Positions 28,843 to 32,651 of a DNA stretch of 64,000 nucleotides are shown piece by piece. The notes beneath the pieces were generated by a model, which saw only the letters and a program-made list of their open reading frames with translations, was not told where the DNA came from and did not search any database. Source of the stretch: Wenxinia marina DSM 24838 (GTDB lineage: Bacteria > Pseudomonadota > Alphaproteobacteria > Rhodobacterales > Rhodobacteraceae); NCBI RefSeq assembly GCF_000379485.1, contig NZ_KB902276.1, positions 124,001 to 188,000 of the forward strand. Direction: 5' to 3'. Positions within the stretch are counted from its first letter, which is position 1. The number at the start of each line of letters is the position of its first letter. Position numbers and translations under genes: made by a program.

Positions 28843-28892
28843 CCGGGGCCTCGGACCGTTCGCCCGGCGGCAAGGGGACGCCTATGCTTGGG

Positions 28893-28914
28893 AAGCGGTT
28901 CAGGGGCAGGTGTG
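28893..28914. repeat. Left half of the palindromic target site, including the TSD
   Basis: The left flank ends with AAGCGGTTCAGGGG and then the 8-bp target duplication CAGGTGTG at 28907-28914. Joined to the right flank at 32518, it restores a hairpin: GTTCAGGGGCA, loop GGTG, TGCCCCTGAAC, with a further 5 bp on each side after a one-base bulge. It is likely an intergenic terminator between the L,D-transpeptidase gene (+) and gap (-). Confidence 0.8.
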
Positions 28915-28939
28915 CGGCCTTATGTATCAATAGCACCAA
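28915..28939 (+). repeat. Left terminal inverted repeat of the transposon
   Basis: Begins CGGCCTTATGTATCAA and continues TAGCACCAA. The opposite end has AC instead of TA at positions 17-18. With 8-bp target duplications the boundary is base 28915; because the neighbouring bases also match, a boundary one base inward cannot be excluded. Confidence 0.88.
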
Positions 28940-28972
28940 GCGGATTCCGGGTGAATCCCGTAGCTTCGGGCC

Positions 28973-29306
28973 ATGCGCCTCGACCGCTACTCCGAAGCCA
29001 CCATCACGGCGTCGCTCGTCTGCCTGCGAGCGCGGATCGTCCGCGACGACCTGGACGGGCTGGCGCACGTTGAGGCGCTGCTACGCCTGCGGGACGTAGA
29101 CCCGGAGACTCTGCGGGTGCCGCCCAAGGTGCCGAAGCAAGCGCGGCGAGATACAGCGGATGGTGATGGAGGCGCTGCGGGACGGCGCTGAGACGGTGTG
29201 CGAGGTCAGGGACGCGGTGCACCCACGGATGCCGCATCTGAGCAAGCGCGAGGCGTACGAGCGGGTGCGGCAGTGTATGGGTCGGGCGGGGAGGCTGGCC
29301 CCGTAG
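28973..29306 (+). pseudogene. Frameshifted small transposon gene of unknown function
   Basis: Two overlapping frames read as one protein. From the ATG at 28973, 57 codons give RLDRYSEATITASLVCLRAR, then LAHVEALLRLRDVDPETLRV and KVPKQA. The natural continuation is in the next frame from about 29145, reading GEIQRMVMEALRDGAETVCE, then HLSKREAYERVRQCMGRAGR and a stop at 29304-29306. A single extra base near 29138-29144 would explain the break. The combined product (about 110 residues) looks like a helical protein with a C-terminal winged-helix-like region (inference). It could be a true pseudogene, a sequencing indel or programmed frameshifting. It is the first gene after the left end. Confidence 0.6.
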
Positions 29307-29321
29307 GGCCAGCCGAGCCAG

Positions 29322-30086
29322 TCAGGCAGCGGTCTTGGGGAGCAGCTTCGGGAGGTGGGGCAAGGCGGCAGGATCGCGGTCGTTGAAGTAGTTTTCCGCG
29401 TGCTGGGGAATCCAAACCGTGTCCACAAACTCGATGTAAAGAGCGAGCATGTCGTGCGGGTACTGCCGCGCCTCGCCCTCCCACTCTTTGGTTTTGTGCA
29501 TGTAGAACTTGTGACGGTTCGCGTGCTCGGGGTGGTGCTTTCGCAGCCAATCCGCGAAGCGCCGACCGACGCTGACGTCAGGACGGTTCTCGCAGCCGTT
29601 CGGAGCCTTGTCCGCCATAATGTGGCCGACCATTTCCAACCTGCCCCAGAGCCGGTAGGCCAGCTCAGATATGACCGAGAAGTACCCCGCGTCCACGCGG
29701 TCCCAGTTCTCGTTGAAGCGCCGGATGAAGGCCGGGACGCGGCCGCCGTAGCTTCCCGTCTTGCGGATCGACTGCAAGACTTCGGAGGTGATCCACTTCT
29801 TGAACCTCTTGGCTTCCGGTTTGGTGGACCGGAGGACAAGGGAGTACAAGCCGGACTCGTTGATAATGTTGAGCTTTCTAGCCCCACCCTTCCGGCCCGG
29901 TTGACCCTCGGAAATTCCGAGGGTCATTACTTCGTCCGCATCCAAGCGAGATGCTGCATCGCTTGGGTTCGCTATCCCCAACTTCTTGCAGACATCGAAC
30001 AAGACGAACCAAGGCTCGCCGTTGCGGTCGATCACTCGGAAGTCTGTGTCGTCTTCGTACTGGAAGACTTGCATTGCGTACTGCAT
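29322..30086 (-). CDS. BRO-N domain protein (phage antirepressor-like)
   Basis: 254 residues. Residues about 5-110 form a BRO-N domain: VFQYEDDTDFRVIDRNGEPW, FVLFDVCKKLGIANPSDAAS, RKLNIINESGLYSLVLRSTK and AKRFKKWITSEVLQSIRKTG are the classical signature of phage antirepressors and BRO proteins. The C-terminal half (110-254) is unrelated to known antirepressor effector domains that I recognise; it is helical with several Trp and His (FADWLRKHHPEHANRHKFYM). A strong GGAGGGG precedes the ATG at 30086. It is encoded downstream of, and on the same strand as, the transposase, 233 bp away. It may be a DNA-binding regulator of the element (inference). Confidence 0.85.
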   Translation of the reverse strand: MQYAMQVFQYEDDTDFRVIDRNGEPWFVLFDVCKKLGIANPSDAASRLDADEVMTLGISEGQPGRKGGARKLNIINESGLYSLVLRSTKPEAKRFKKWITSEVLQSIRKTGSYGGRVPAFIRRFNENWDRVDAGYFSVISELAYRLWGRLEMVGHIMADKAPNGCENRPDVSVGRRFADWLRKHHPEHANRHKFYMHKTKEWEGEARQYPHDMLALYIEFVDTVWIPQHAENYFNDRDPAALPHLPKLLPKTAA

Positions 30087-30319
30087 CGCATCGCCCCTCC
30101 TTGGGCATTTCTGCGCCGCAGCACGACTTGACGACTCTGCGCCAGAGGCGCATTGTAGTCCGACAGGGAGGACGCCGCGCTGCGGCAGATTTCTTTCGAG
30201 CCGGGGGTTAGTTCTGTGGAAGGGACGCCCCCGCGCTCACCCTGTGAGCCCCAATCTACGGCAGATTGTCGCACCCGTCGAGTCCCGGGACGTTCCCGTC
30301 CCGTACTCGGGTTGTTCGC

Positions 30320-31282
30320 TCACGCCGCCCGCTGCCAGTAGCCCGCCCAGTTGCGGCTGACCGGCGACCCCATCGCGTTCGCCACCAGCCGCCGGCCCAG
30401 CCCGCCGTTGTCGGTGCGGCGGTTGTCCTCCAGCCACGCCGCATGGGTGGCGTACTGGTGGAGGTACTGCGGGCTGACGTGGTGGTGCTGACCGGCGACC
30501 ATGCGGCGCAGGCGCGAGAAGTAGCTTTCGACCCAGTTGGTGTGCTTCCCGTGGTCGCTGTAGACCAGCGAGTGATTGACCCGCTGCACCGGCCAGCCCG
30601 CGTGGAGCGCATCCCAGTGCGAGGCTTCGTCCGCCAACATGGTGGCGAGGCGATGCACATGCTCCAGCGCCAGCGGAACGCCTTCGGCCTCGGCGCGGAC
30701 GACGATGGGCAGGGTCCGACCGTACCGCTCGCGGAAGGCGACGACGACGCGGCGGCGCGGGCTTTGGTTCTCCTTGAGGCGGCGGTCCTTCCGGTCCTCC
30801 TTGCGGTTCTCCGGGCGGACGTGACCGCCGAAGTACGCGCCATCGACCTCGACGTGACCGTCCAGAACCTCGCCCGTGTGAACCTCCAGCGCCATCGCCT
30901 CACGCAGCTTGTGGGCGAGGACGAACGCGGTCTTGTATTGGCAGTCCAGGTCGCGGGAAAGCTGGAGCATCGACACGCCCTTGGCGGCGTTCACGGTGAT
31001 GCAGATCGCCGCCAGCAGGTCCACGAACGCCATCTTGCGGCTGGCGAAGATCGTGCCGGAGGTCACGCTGAACTGGTGCAGGCACCGCTTGCACTTGAAC
31101 TTGCGGCGGGTGGCGATGTCGTACGCCTCGTCATGCCCGCAGCGCGGGCACACCGCCTCGCCGTCCGTGTCCTGCCAGCGCATCTTGCGGAAGGTGTCGT
31201 ACGCGGCTTCCTCACCGGCTTTGTAGATTGCGCGGAGGCTGAGGGTGCGGGCCGCTGCGGAAAGGAGGAAGTGCTGTGCCAT
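30320..31282 (-). CDS. IS1595-family transposase
   Basis: 320 residues when started at AQHFLLSAAARTLSLRAIYK, the conserved N-terminus of this group; the frame opens 15 codons earlier at 31327. An N-terminal zinc ribbon has two CxxC pairs (VCPRCGHDEAY and KCKRCLHQF). The DDE-type domain has the first Asp in GHVEVDGAYFGGH, the second in SLVYSDHGKHTNWVESYFSR, and the Glu four residues after the HTN segment, followed by basic residues. ALSRDL-like segment LQLSRDLDCQYKTAFVLAHKLREA is typical. It is complete and looks functional. It should act on the TIRs at 28915-28939 and 32485-32509. Confidence 0.93.
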   Translation of the reverse strand: MAQHFLLSAAARTLSLRAIYKAGEEAAYDTFRKMRWQDTDGEAVCPRCGHDEAYDIATRRKFKCKRCLHQFSVTSGTIFASRKMAFVDLLAAICITVNAAKGVSMLQLSRDLDCQYKTAFVLAHKLREAMALEVHTGEVLDGHVEVDGAYFGGHVRPENRKEDRKDRRLKENQSPRRRVVVAFRERYGRTLPIVVRAEAEGVPLALEHVHRLATMLADEASHWDALHAGWPVQRVNHSLVYSDHGKHTNWVESYFSRLRRMVAGQHHHVSPQYLHQYATHAAWLEDNRRTDNGGLGRRLVANAMGSPVSRNWAGYWQRAA

Positions 31283-31380
31283 CTTATCGTATCCAGTAGG
31301 TTCATACCGGATATAGTAAGGTGACATACTGCCCGCAAGAGGTTATCTATCGATTATAGTAGTTTTCTAGCGAGGACGAC

Positions 31381-31605
31381 ATGCCGACGCAGACGCAGTG
31401 GGAGGCCATGGCCGCCAACCTTCTGAAGGCCGAGCTGAAGCGCAAGGGCGTGACATACGCGCAGCTTGTCGAGAAGCTGGCGGCCATTGGAATCAGTGAG
31501 AAGGAAGCGAACGTCGCGAACAAGCTCTCACGGGGCAAGTTCAGTGCGGTGTTCCTGTTGCAATGCCTCTCAGCCGTTGGATCATCGCAGTTGCGCTTGG
31601 ATTAA
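31381..31605 (+). CDS. DUF6471 domain protein
   Basis: 74 residues, nearly all of it the DUF6471 domain: WEAMAANLLKAELKRKGVTY, AQLVEKLAAIGISEKEANVA, NKLSRGKFSAVFLLQCLSAV. The helical pattern (two helices, a turn with GI, then a helix with NKLSRGKFS) resembles small helix-turn-helix proteins, so DNA binding is possible (inference). It is divergent from the transposase, with 98 bp between start codons, and its 3' end overlaps the next gene by 43 bp, suggesting coupled translation. I recall DUF6471 genes next to IS1595 transposases in other proteobacteria, but did not check this. Confidence 0.82.
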   Translation: MPTQTQWEAMAANLLKAELKRKGVTYAQLVEKLAAIGISEKEANVANKLSRGKFSAVFLLQCLSAVGSSQLRLD

Positions 31606-32450
31606 TTGTCGCAACTTCAGGGCAAGCCCAAGAGCAAGCACAGCCCGGAGAGGGGCAGCCCGACGAACAGCAAGAACCAGCCAGTTCTTACCCTCTGCCG
31701 TTCCCGGTTGAAATTGTCGAGGATGAGGCCGCCGCCGATGCCCGCCAGCGCAGCGAGGAAGAAGCCCGCCAGCGGGAGATAGAAGACCTTGCTGCCCAGC
31801 AGGGTATGAACGACGCCACACGCGCGATGAACGCGGCCACGCAAGACATGCGTGACTACGCGCTCTATTCCACAATACTCGTCGGCGTTGGTACGGTCCT
31901 GCTGTTCGTCACCCTCTTTTTGACCTGGCAAGCCAATAAAGCTGCGAGGGATGCTGTCGAGGTGACCAGAGAAATCGGCGAGGCTCAGGTCAGAGCCTAC
32001 CCCATATTCCAGATCAAAGAAGTTCTGATATCCAACACGGACGAATTTGGCAATGTCGTCGTTTCGTTTCGCGGAAAGGTCAAAAACACCGGGACTACGC
32101 CGGCTTATGGACTCGGATTCCGGATCGAAATCACCAAGGTATCGGGACAGGCGCATGGCGAAACTAACGCCGACGGTCTCGGCATGTTCGATACGGGAAC
32201 GTCGCTGAGCACTCTCGCGGCCGAACAGGAGGTCAACCAGAAGCTCGAAAGACGAATGGAAGCCGATATTGAGAAAGTTCGATCTGGCCAAGAGGGGTTT
32301 CGTCTCACCTATGTCCTGACCTACATCGACGTTTTCGGCAAAAAACAGACTAGTCCCATCGTCTCTGGAACTACTGGCATCGACCAAGACGCCGGAAAGA
32401 TCATTTTTATGCCGGATATCCTGACCGGACATGATGAGGAAGAAGACTAG
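31563..32450 (+). CDS. Membrane-anchored passenger protein with coiled coil
   Basis: 295 residues. Signal peptide or first membrane segment at about 5-23 (RWIIAVALGLIVATSGQAQ). An acidic Gln/Glu-rich linker (25-60) precedes a charged helical segment (about 60-95, ARQRSEEEARQREIEDLAAQ), then a strong membrane segment near 101-121 (STILVGVGTVLLFVTLFLTW). The sequence continues QANKAARDAVEVTREIGEAQ, a motif seen in many uncharacterised proteobacterial island proteins. The C-terminal 160 residues look beta-rich and soluble. The N-terminus overlaps the DUF6471 gene. GC content is clearly lower than in surrounding chromosomal genes. Function unknown. Confidence 0.8.
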   Translation: MPLSRWIIAVALGLIVATSGQAQEQAQPGEGQPDEQQEPASSYPLPFPVEIVEDEAAADARQRSEEEARQREIEDLAAQQGMNDATRAMNAATQDMRDYALYSTILVGVGTVLLFVTLFLTWQANKAARDAVEVTREIGEAQVRAYPIFQIKEVLISNTDEFGNVVVSFRGKVKNTGTTPAYGLGFRIEITKVSGQAHGETNADGLGMFDTGTSLSTLAAEQEVNQKLERRMEADIEKVRSGQEGFRLTYVLTYIDVFGKKQTSPIVSGTTGIDQDAGKIIFMPDILTGHDEEED

Positions 32451-32484
32451 CAGCTTAATCACCGCTCAACCCTCCGTCCGAGGG

Positions 32485-32509
32485 TTGGTGCGTTTGATAC
32501 ATAAGGCCG
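32485..32509 (-). repeat. Right terminal inverted repeat of the transposon
   Basis: Read on the minus strand from 32509: CGGCCTTATGTATCAA then ACGCACCAA. It matches 23 of 25 bases of the left end. The right copy of the target duplication (CAGGTGTG) begins at 32510. Confidence 0.88.
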
Positions 32510-32534
32510 CAGGTGTGCCCCTGAACGCGCTTCA
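32510..32534. repeat. Right half of the palindromic target site, including the TSD
   Basis: CAGGTGTG at 32510-32517 repeats the bases at 28907-28914. It is followed by CCCCTGAACGCGCTT, which pairs with AAGCGGTTCAGGGG of the left flank. Before insertion the two halves formed one stem-loop with the duplicated octamer at its tip. Confidence 0.8.
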
Positions 32535-32651
32535 TCCAGCGTGCTGCGATTCGCCTGAGCCTCAAGGATTCCCGGCTTCGCCGGCGCCTGCGGCGTCCTT
32601 GACCCTCCGCCGAATCGCGAAGGGGGCGCGGGTGGCGGTCGGGTGCGCGGG

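Follow-up and report, generated by a model that had tools for sequence, protein, structure and literature searches.

The question raised by this locus is what a short gene of the DUF6471 family does inside a mobile element, and why its end overlaps the start of a gene encoding a membrane protein. The window analysed here is a stretch of 64,000 nt of Wenxinia marina DSM 24838 (contig NZ_KB902276.1, positions 124,001-188,000), and all coordinates are relative to it. A first-pass annotation had proposed that both genes form a co-evolved unit carried as transposon cargo, possibly a control, addiction or defence module.

An IS1595-family element and its gene plan

The DUF6471 gene (31381-31605, + strand; 74 aa; Pfam PF20075, E 2e-31) overlaps the gene of a 295-aa two-segment membrane protein (31563-32450, +; recognised as an ORF, by family BLAST and by a structure model) over exactly 43 nt (31563-31605, +), a stretch comprising the end of the former and the first 14 codons of the latter. 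It is divergent from the ORF of an IS1595-family transposase (30320-31327, -; PF12762, 3.8e-36; NF033547, 8.9e-41), whose true start may be at 31282, since the alignment with most homologues begins near residue 16. The gene length, the overlap and the divergent transposase had all been described correctly, and the assignment as transposon cargo also holds, as both genes are enclosed with the transposase in one IS1595-family element (28915-32509, 3595 bp), present as a single copy in its genome and flanked on both sides by the perfect 8-bp target duplication CAGGTGTG (28907-28914 and 32510-32517). Insertion of IS1595-family elements is accompanied by an 8-bp target duplication, and the window element combines this feature with an IS1595 (ISXO2-like) DDE transposase and terminal inverted repeats at 28915-28939 (+, beginning CGGCCTTATGTATCAA) and 32485-32509 (-), both delimited by inverted-repeat comparison and by relatives. 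A longer inverted repeat of 42 nt (28898-28939 and 32485-32526) takes in host sequence beyond the element ends. The exact termini were taken from relatives and set one base outside GGCC...GGCC, the left duplication being supported by empty paralogous sites as well. With this choice a perfect 8-bp duplication is found in 46 of the 55 loci having both ends, plus the window, and no other offset approaches this count except 6 bp, which is nested in the 8-bp duplication. The host site is an interspersed intergenic repeat of ~130 bp (28866-28915 and 32509-32600 in the window), and uninterrupted copies of it in the same genome join both flanks of the element as an empty site would. About 20 or more further copies of this repeat are present in the genome.

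The main sample consisted of 80 DUF6471 loci from other, named genomes, and is biased to near relatives because these are the best 80 of 391. They share a plan consisting of the left end, a core gene termed ORFA, left-slot cargo, the leftward transposase, the rightward DUF6471 gene, right-slot cargo and the right end, and an IS1595 transposase is divergent from and adjoins DUF6471 in 71 of the 80 loci. ORFA, the first core gene near the left end (28973-29306, +), belongs to a family found in 54 elements including the window, where one frameshift breaks its reading frame; the copy searched against Pfam (L113) had no match.

The left slot of the window element encodes a Bro-N protein whose C-terminal half resembles BstA (29322-30086, -), recognised with Pfam, phrog and PADLOC models. 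It matches the C-terminal domain of BstA (phrog_6287, 3.7e-15; PADLOC BstA, 7.6e-8) and lacks the BstA N-terminal domain, its own N-terminus being Bro-N and its match covering BstA positions 147-269 only. KilA-N or Bro-N relatives also occupy the left slot in L084 and L147. Genes of toxin-antitoxin type were found there among the proteins searched individually, which were chosen for looking familiar, and include a Gp49/HTH pair (L103), ParE (L110) and Panacea (L101). Among the best 25 of 125 PADLOC families matched by 47 left-slot ORFs were HEC-09 (two), BstA (two), RmrA-like (two), PDC-S05, a methyltransferase and DUF3800, and among the best 25 of 99 families matched by 48 flank-control ORFs were mad8 (two), an orphan methyltransferase, mad3 and a CARF model; among the matches listed, the left slot is not clearly above the control.

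DUF6471 and its candidate operators

The structure model of DUF6471 (pLDDT 93) comprises four helices (residues 6-22, 26-35, 42-51 and 56-65). Its top structural match is C.Esp1396I (Z 9.6, rmsd 1.3, 65 aligned residues), followed by C.BclI, lambda cI and other controller proteins or repressors, with the qualification that Z values of 8-10 are no proof for small helical domains and that the Foldseek E-values are weak (best 0.034). By sequence, the protein matches PF20075 alone in Pfam, with no HTH or controller family, has no relative among solved structures (one chance-level match) and no match in PADLOC. The model predicts a small regulator of the lambda-repressor fold, in the ~80-aa size class.

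Perfect palindromes of the form 6-N4-6 are present in 34 of 72 control regions between transposase and DUF6471 (mean 2.9 and maximum 5 in 10 shuffling runs), and their positions cluster near -92, -71 and -39 of DUF6471, that is, 21 and 32 bp apart. The half-site differs among elements (GTAAC, GTATC, GCATC, GCACT or ATATC) and, over 56 loci, covaries with DUF6471 residues 43 (z 7.4) and 46 (z 7.3), both of which fall in the predicted recognition helix 42-51; lower values were obtained elsewhere, the next DUF6471 column reaching 3.3 and the best of 258 transposase columns 3.0. Arg46 is accompanied by G as the first base in 45 of 46 cases and Ala46 by A in 6 of 8, while Val43 is accompanied by T as the second base in 29 of 30 and Ala or Pro43 by C in 10, T in 9 and G in 2. 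Independent pairs on the transposase tree run in one direction for residue 46 (4.9 to 0) and residue 43 (4.3 and 5.1 to 0), with those control columns that were listed (9, 10 and 35) splitting evenly, and these pairs are few, giving a median sign-test p of 0.06-0.125. Binding of the operators by the transposase is disfavoured, as the half-site does not covary with its columns; because operator bases covary instead with residues 43 and 46 of DUF6471, this protein is very probably an operator-binding controller of the element. The DNA-binding control role suggested for DUF6471 by the first-pass annotation is in this way strengthened by the controller-like predicted fold, the palindromes and the covariation with the recognition helix.

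The window itself has no perfect palindrome in its control region, the best candidate being the operator-like AGTAAG-GTGA-CATACT (31315-31330), with 5 of 6 pairs and perfect copies in relatives, and that region yielded no consensus sigma-70 promoter. The predicted specificity residues of the window protein are A43 and A46. At transposase-free loci a perfect palindrome occurs in 5 of 41 (shuffles 1.5, maximum 5), a slight excess. A transposase-free copy on an Aquicella plasmid (L035) keeps two 6-N4-6 palindromes.

The overlapping membrane gene and other cargo of the right slot

An ATG-initiated ORF of 266-354 aa overlaps the DUF6471 stop in 47 of the 80 loci, together with the divergent transposase in 41 of them. 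The overlap measures 43 nt in 30 loci, 46 nt in 10 and 40 nt in 7, and in all 47 the membrane gene starts at codon 61/62 of DUF6471 (CAA or GCA, then TGY). Five further loci carry the same family in an altered state: L092 is cut by the contig end, the start has decayed in L099, L125 and L147 do not overlap, and L140 holds a weak fragment. In a sample of the order to which the window belongs, DUF6471 was detected in 22 of 196 genomes at 23 places, of which 12 have the overlapping membrane frame and 15 a transposase or a fragment of one; one more frame, in L061, accompanies a decayed DUF6471. Searching the other way round, with the membrane family as query, gave 28 places, which lie in 26 of 292 genomes. 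Twenty genes (one of them split between two places) are matched from the beginning of the profile onwards, and 16 adjoin DUF6471 or a remnant of it. DUF6471 is lacking at the four others (L250, L252, L254 and L255) and at the seven partial matches; L250 retains right-end sequence downstream. The pairing had been said to be accidental if the genes were rarely adjacent elsewhere, and adjacency proved not to be rare, since the pair was recovered by the forward and the reverse search.

By linked BLAST matches, the 48 membrane proteins compared form one family, for which PADLOC gave no match and Pfam nothing meaningful (seven stray, weak, single-member matches). Shared motifs are DLxAQ before the second transmembrane segment (TM2), IGxAQxRAY after it, NxGxxPA and YxDVF. 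The model of the window protein (pLDDT 79) has a short N-terminal helix, one helix spanning residues 55-143 and a beta-sandwich at 147-284, consistent with a layout of a signal or first transmembrane segment, a long helix containing TM2 at about residues 101-125, and the beta-sandwich. The earlier description as a signal-peptide, transmembrane and coiled-coil protein is borne out for the N-terminal hydrophobic segment, to which the model adds TM2 and the C-terminal domain; what had been called a coiled coil corresponds to a single predicted helix of 89 residues running through the membrane. The nearest PDB folds are ApaG-type Ig folds (1.5e-4) and the nearest viral model is a transmembrane protein of Rhizobium phage RHEph01 (3.2e-7). 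The charge around TM2 follows the positive-inside pattern in 35 of the 48 proteins and the opposite in 7, a bias which places the Ig-like C-terminal domain probably in the cytosol and the part between the segments outside, with the protein anchored in the inner membrane.

The right slot does not always hold this gene. Other occupants, among 10 proteins searched out of 24, include a type IIG restriction enzyme (L094, 6e-138), a PDC-S42 relative (L107, 2.4e-12) and SocA/Panacea (L152, 7e-15), and on plasmids DUF6471 precedes an N6 methylase with an S subunit (L037), a methyltransferase with a helicase (L039) or a UvrD-type helicase (L038). A frequent alternative is a different membrane protein encoded on the opposite strand and running into the DUF6471 stop, for which no domain in common with the overlapping cargo was found (hhalign probability 0.4%). 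Such convergent genes, overlapping or abutting the stop, were observed in L082, L105, L110, L120, L121, L133, L135, L142, L147 and L151 and are mostly unrelated to one another. A second undescribed right-slot family, of ~280 aa, soluble-looking, 25-41% identical and on either strand, was observed in L108 (6225-7079), L122 (6225-7109), L150 (6204-7046) and L152 (7055-7894).

These occupants bear on the possibility that the membrane protein serves the element itself as an accessory, acting for example in tethering or target choice and not in defence. As the commonest occupant of the slot, mostly found beside the IS1595 transposase, it could be expected to have such a role; however, the pair is missing from 17 of the 46 elements that have perfect duplications, so that transposition does not require the membrane gene. 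Its body also varies far more than the transposase does, and relatives of its C-terminal part exist away from the element. We regard an accessory role as improbable.

The changing cargo also bears on the proposed addiction module, in which DUF6471 would restrain a toxic membrane protein and stabilise the element. A small DNA-binding protein encoded first, an overlapping second gene and autoregulatory-looking operators are what such a pair would display, and the left slot can carry toxin-antitoxin genes, but DUF6471 is found with many other partners and the two genes do not always co-occur. Moreover, intact membrane ORFs lie beside a 5'-truncated or decayed DUF6471 in L049, L054, L060, L061 and L062, and the four full-length genes mentioned above have none. 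Because the pairing is not obligate and membrane genes remain intact where DUF6471 is truncated, we consider addiction distinctly unlikely and do not retain that part of the first-pass annotation. Of the co-evolved two-gene unit it had described, the recurrence stands and the closed pairing does not: DUF6471 stays with the transposase whereas the cargo downstream of it changes, and the membrane gene persists where DUF6471 is truncated or absent.

The start of the membrane gene is constant and its body is hypervariable. Over 151 pairs, DNA identity is 0.80 in the DUF6471 body, 0.63 in the overlap and 0.29 in the next 43 nt, the loss setting in at the DUF6471 stop, and where elements are ~80-90% alike in the DNA of transposase and DUF6471, their membrane bodies are near-random. 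The window and L077, for example, agree almost exactly over the first 14 codons, with nothing evident beyond. L148 and L149, both from Sphingomonas sp. Root710, have DUF6471 DNA 94% identical and membrane bodies only 62% identical. This variability could stem from bodies being swapped or from very rapid change; among the loci fetched, no pair of membrane genes was close enough to suit dN/dS. A fast-changing passenger with no selected function, its overlap kept through constraint on DUF6471 alone, would accord with such divergence (best full-length identity 51% among the 48), with the lack of a known family and with a GC content below that of the transposase in 41 of 41 cases. Against this, 47 loci keep an intact frame of 266-354 aa and no more than five others have a copy that is cut, shifted or reduced to remains, and residues D75, A78, Q79, N175 and G177 are conserved together with the two-segment topology, which makes a neutral hitchhiker hard to credit.

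Accidental adjacency is ruled out by the fixed overlap, and an origin as a phage gene pair was rejected, as neither protein was matched among 50,697 phage records. The 44 DUF6471 loci on viral contigs, where the pair is present in many and mostly beside a transposase, are elements inside prophages or misbinned host DNA. The membrane protein had no match in 72,556 plasmid records, and DUF6471 is present in 15 (neighbourhoods examined for 7).

Proposed working and comparison with known systems

With moderate confidence, we propose an IS1595 element with a cargo slot regulated by DUF6471 and the membrane gene as its downstream defence or exclusion passenger. DUF6471 would bind palindromic operators between its own gene and the transposase gene and, from that intergenic position, would control both divergent promoters, akin to a restriction-modification controller timing its enzyme, although the direction of regulation is itself conjectural. 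The membrane gene would be a downstream passenger on the DUF6471 transcript, presumably with translational coupling. As its start codon and 14 codons sit in the end of the regulator gene, the latter would fix its start and first membrane segment, leaving the body free to vary or be replaced. Our best guess for the membrane protein is an effector of envelope defence or exclusion, a role made plausible by its company (the BstA-like neighbour, and restriction or candidate defence genes in either slot) and its variability. A controller placed ahead of a possibly costly effector would suit a mobile element establishing itself in new cells and, by analogy, would fit the controller-protein logic outlined in excerpts of one report (PMC4041747). 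Only tentatively, and with considerable doubt, can this be extended to a new kind of diversifying defence cassette, in which the DUF6471 3' end would supply a start codon and first membrane segment as a universal docking site; ever-different effectors of one undescribed two-segment, Ig-like family would be joined to it or evolve there under the operator code, each excluding different phages or mobile elements.

On the proposed reading, DUF6471 is assigned a function that can be tested, down to its specificity residues and target DNA sites, and the fixed overlap is a simple handle for finding a large undescribed family of membrane proteins. The carrier elements, found mostly in Alphaproteobacteria, are small mobile vehicles in which restriction, toxin-antitoxin and candidate defence genes travel as well. 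Should the membrane proteins be effectors, so variable a family would offer a ready set for phage-resistance screens.

No mention of DUF6471 was found in the literature searched, and the portions covered on IS1595 passengers, on defence and on controllers with transposons contained no description of the pair. IS1595 elements with passengers, a regulator included, are already known: for ISNha5, a transporter IS (tIS) of the family, a transcription-regulator passenger is on record (PMC11891212, in part). The window element resembles such tIS in its IS1595 transposase, inverted repeats and passenger genes, and differs in the fixed overlap, operator code and variable membrane gene, which were not found in the tIS descriptions covered. 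The controller (C) proteins of restriction-modification systems, such as C.Esp1396I with its three palindromic operator sites (PMC4041747, excerpts), share with DUF6471 the size, the predicted fold, the place as first gene upstream of an effector and the several palindromic operators. In contrast to C proteins, DUF6471 has its own Pfam family without an HTH match and a divergent transposase adjoining it, and it mostly precedes a membrane protein, whereas C proteins precede a nuclease. An operator array read by the protein is indicated by the covariation in relatives, the window palindrome having 5 of 6 pairs; a restriction enzyme and methyltransferase partner is absent from the window and present in some relatives (L094, L037, L039). 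RptR, a defence-island repressor (PMC12255303, in part), is likewise a first gene that represses itself through serial palindromes and heads varied modules; it differs in its 6-bp palindrome, in having no close structural homologue according to its authors and, in the part of that source covered, in having no IS1595 link. As far as these searches go, what is new with respect to such systems is the fixed overlap, the code that links operator and recognition helix, and the family of variable membrane proteins.
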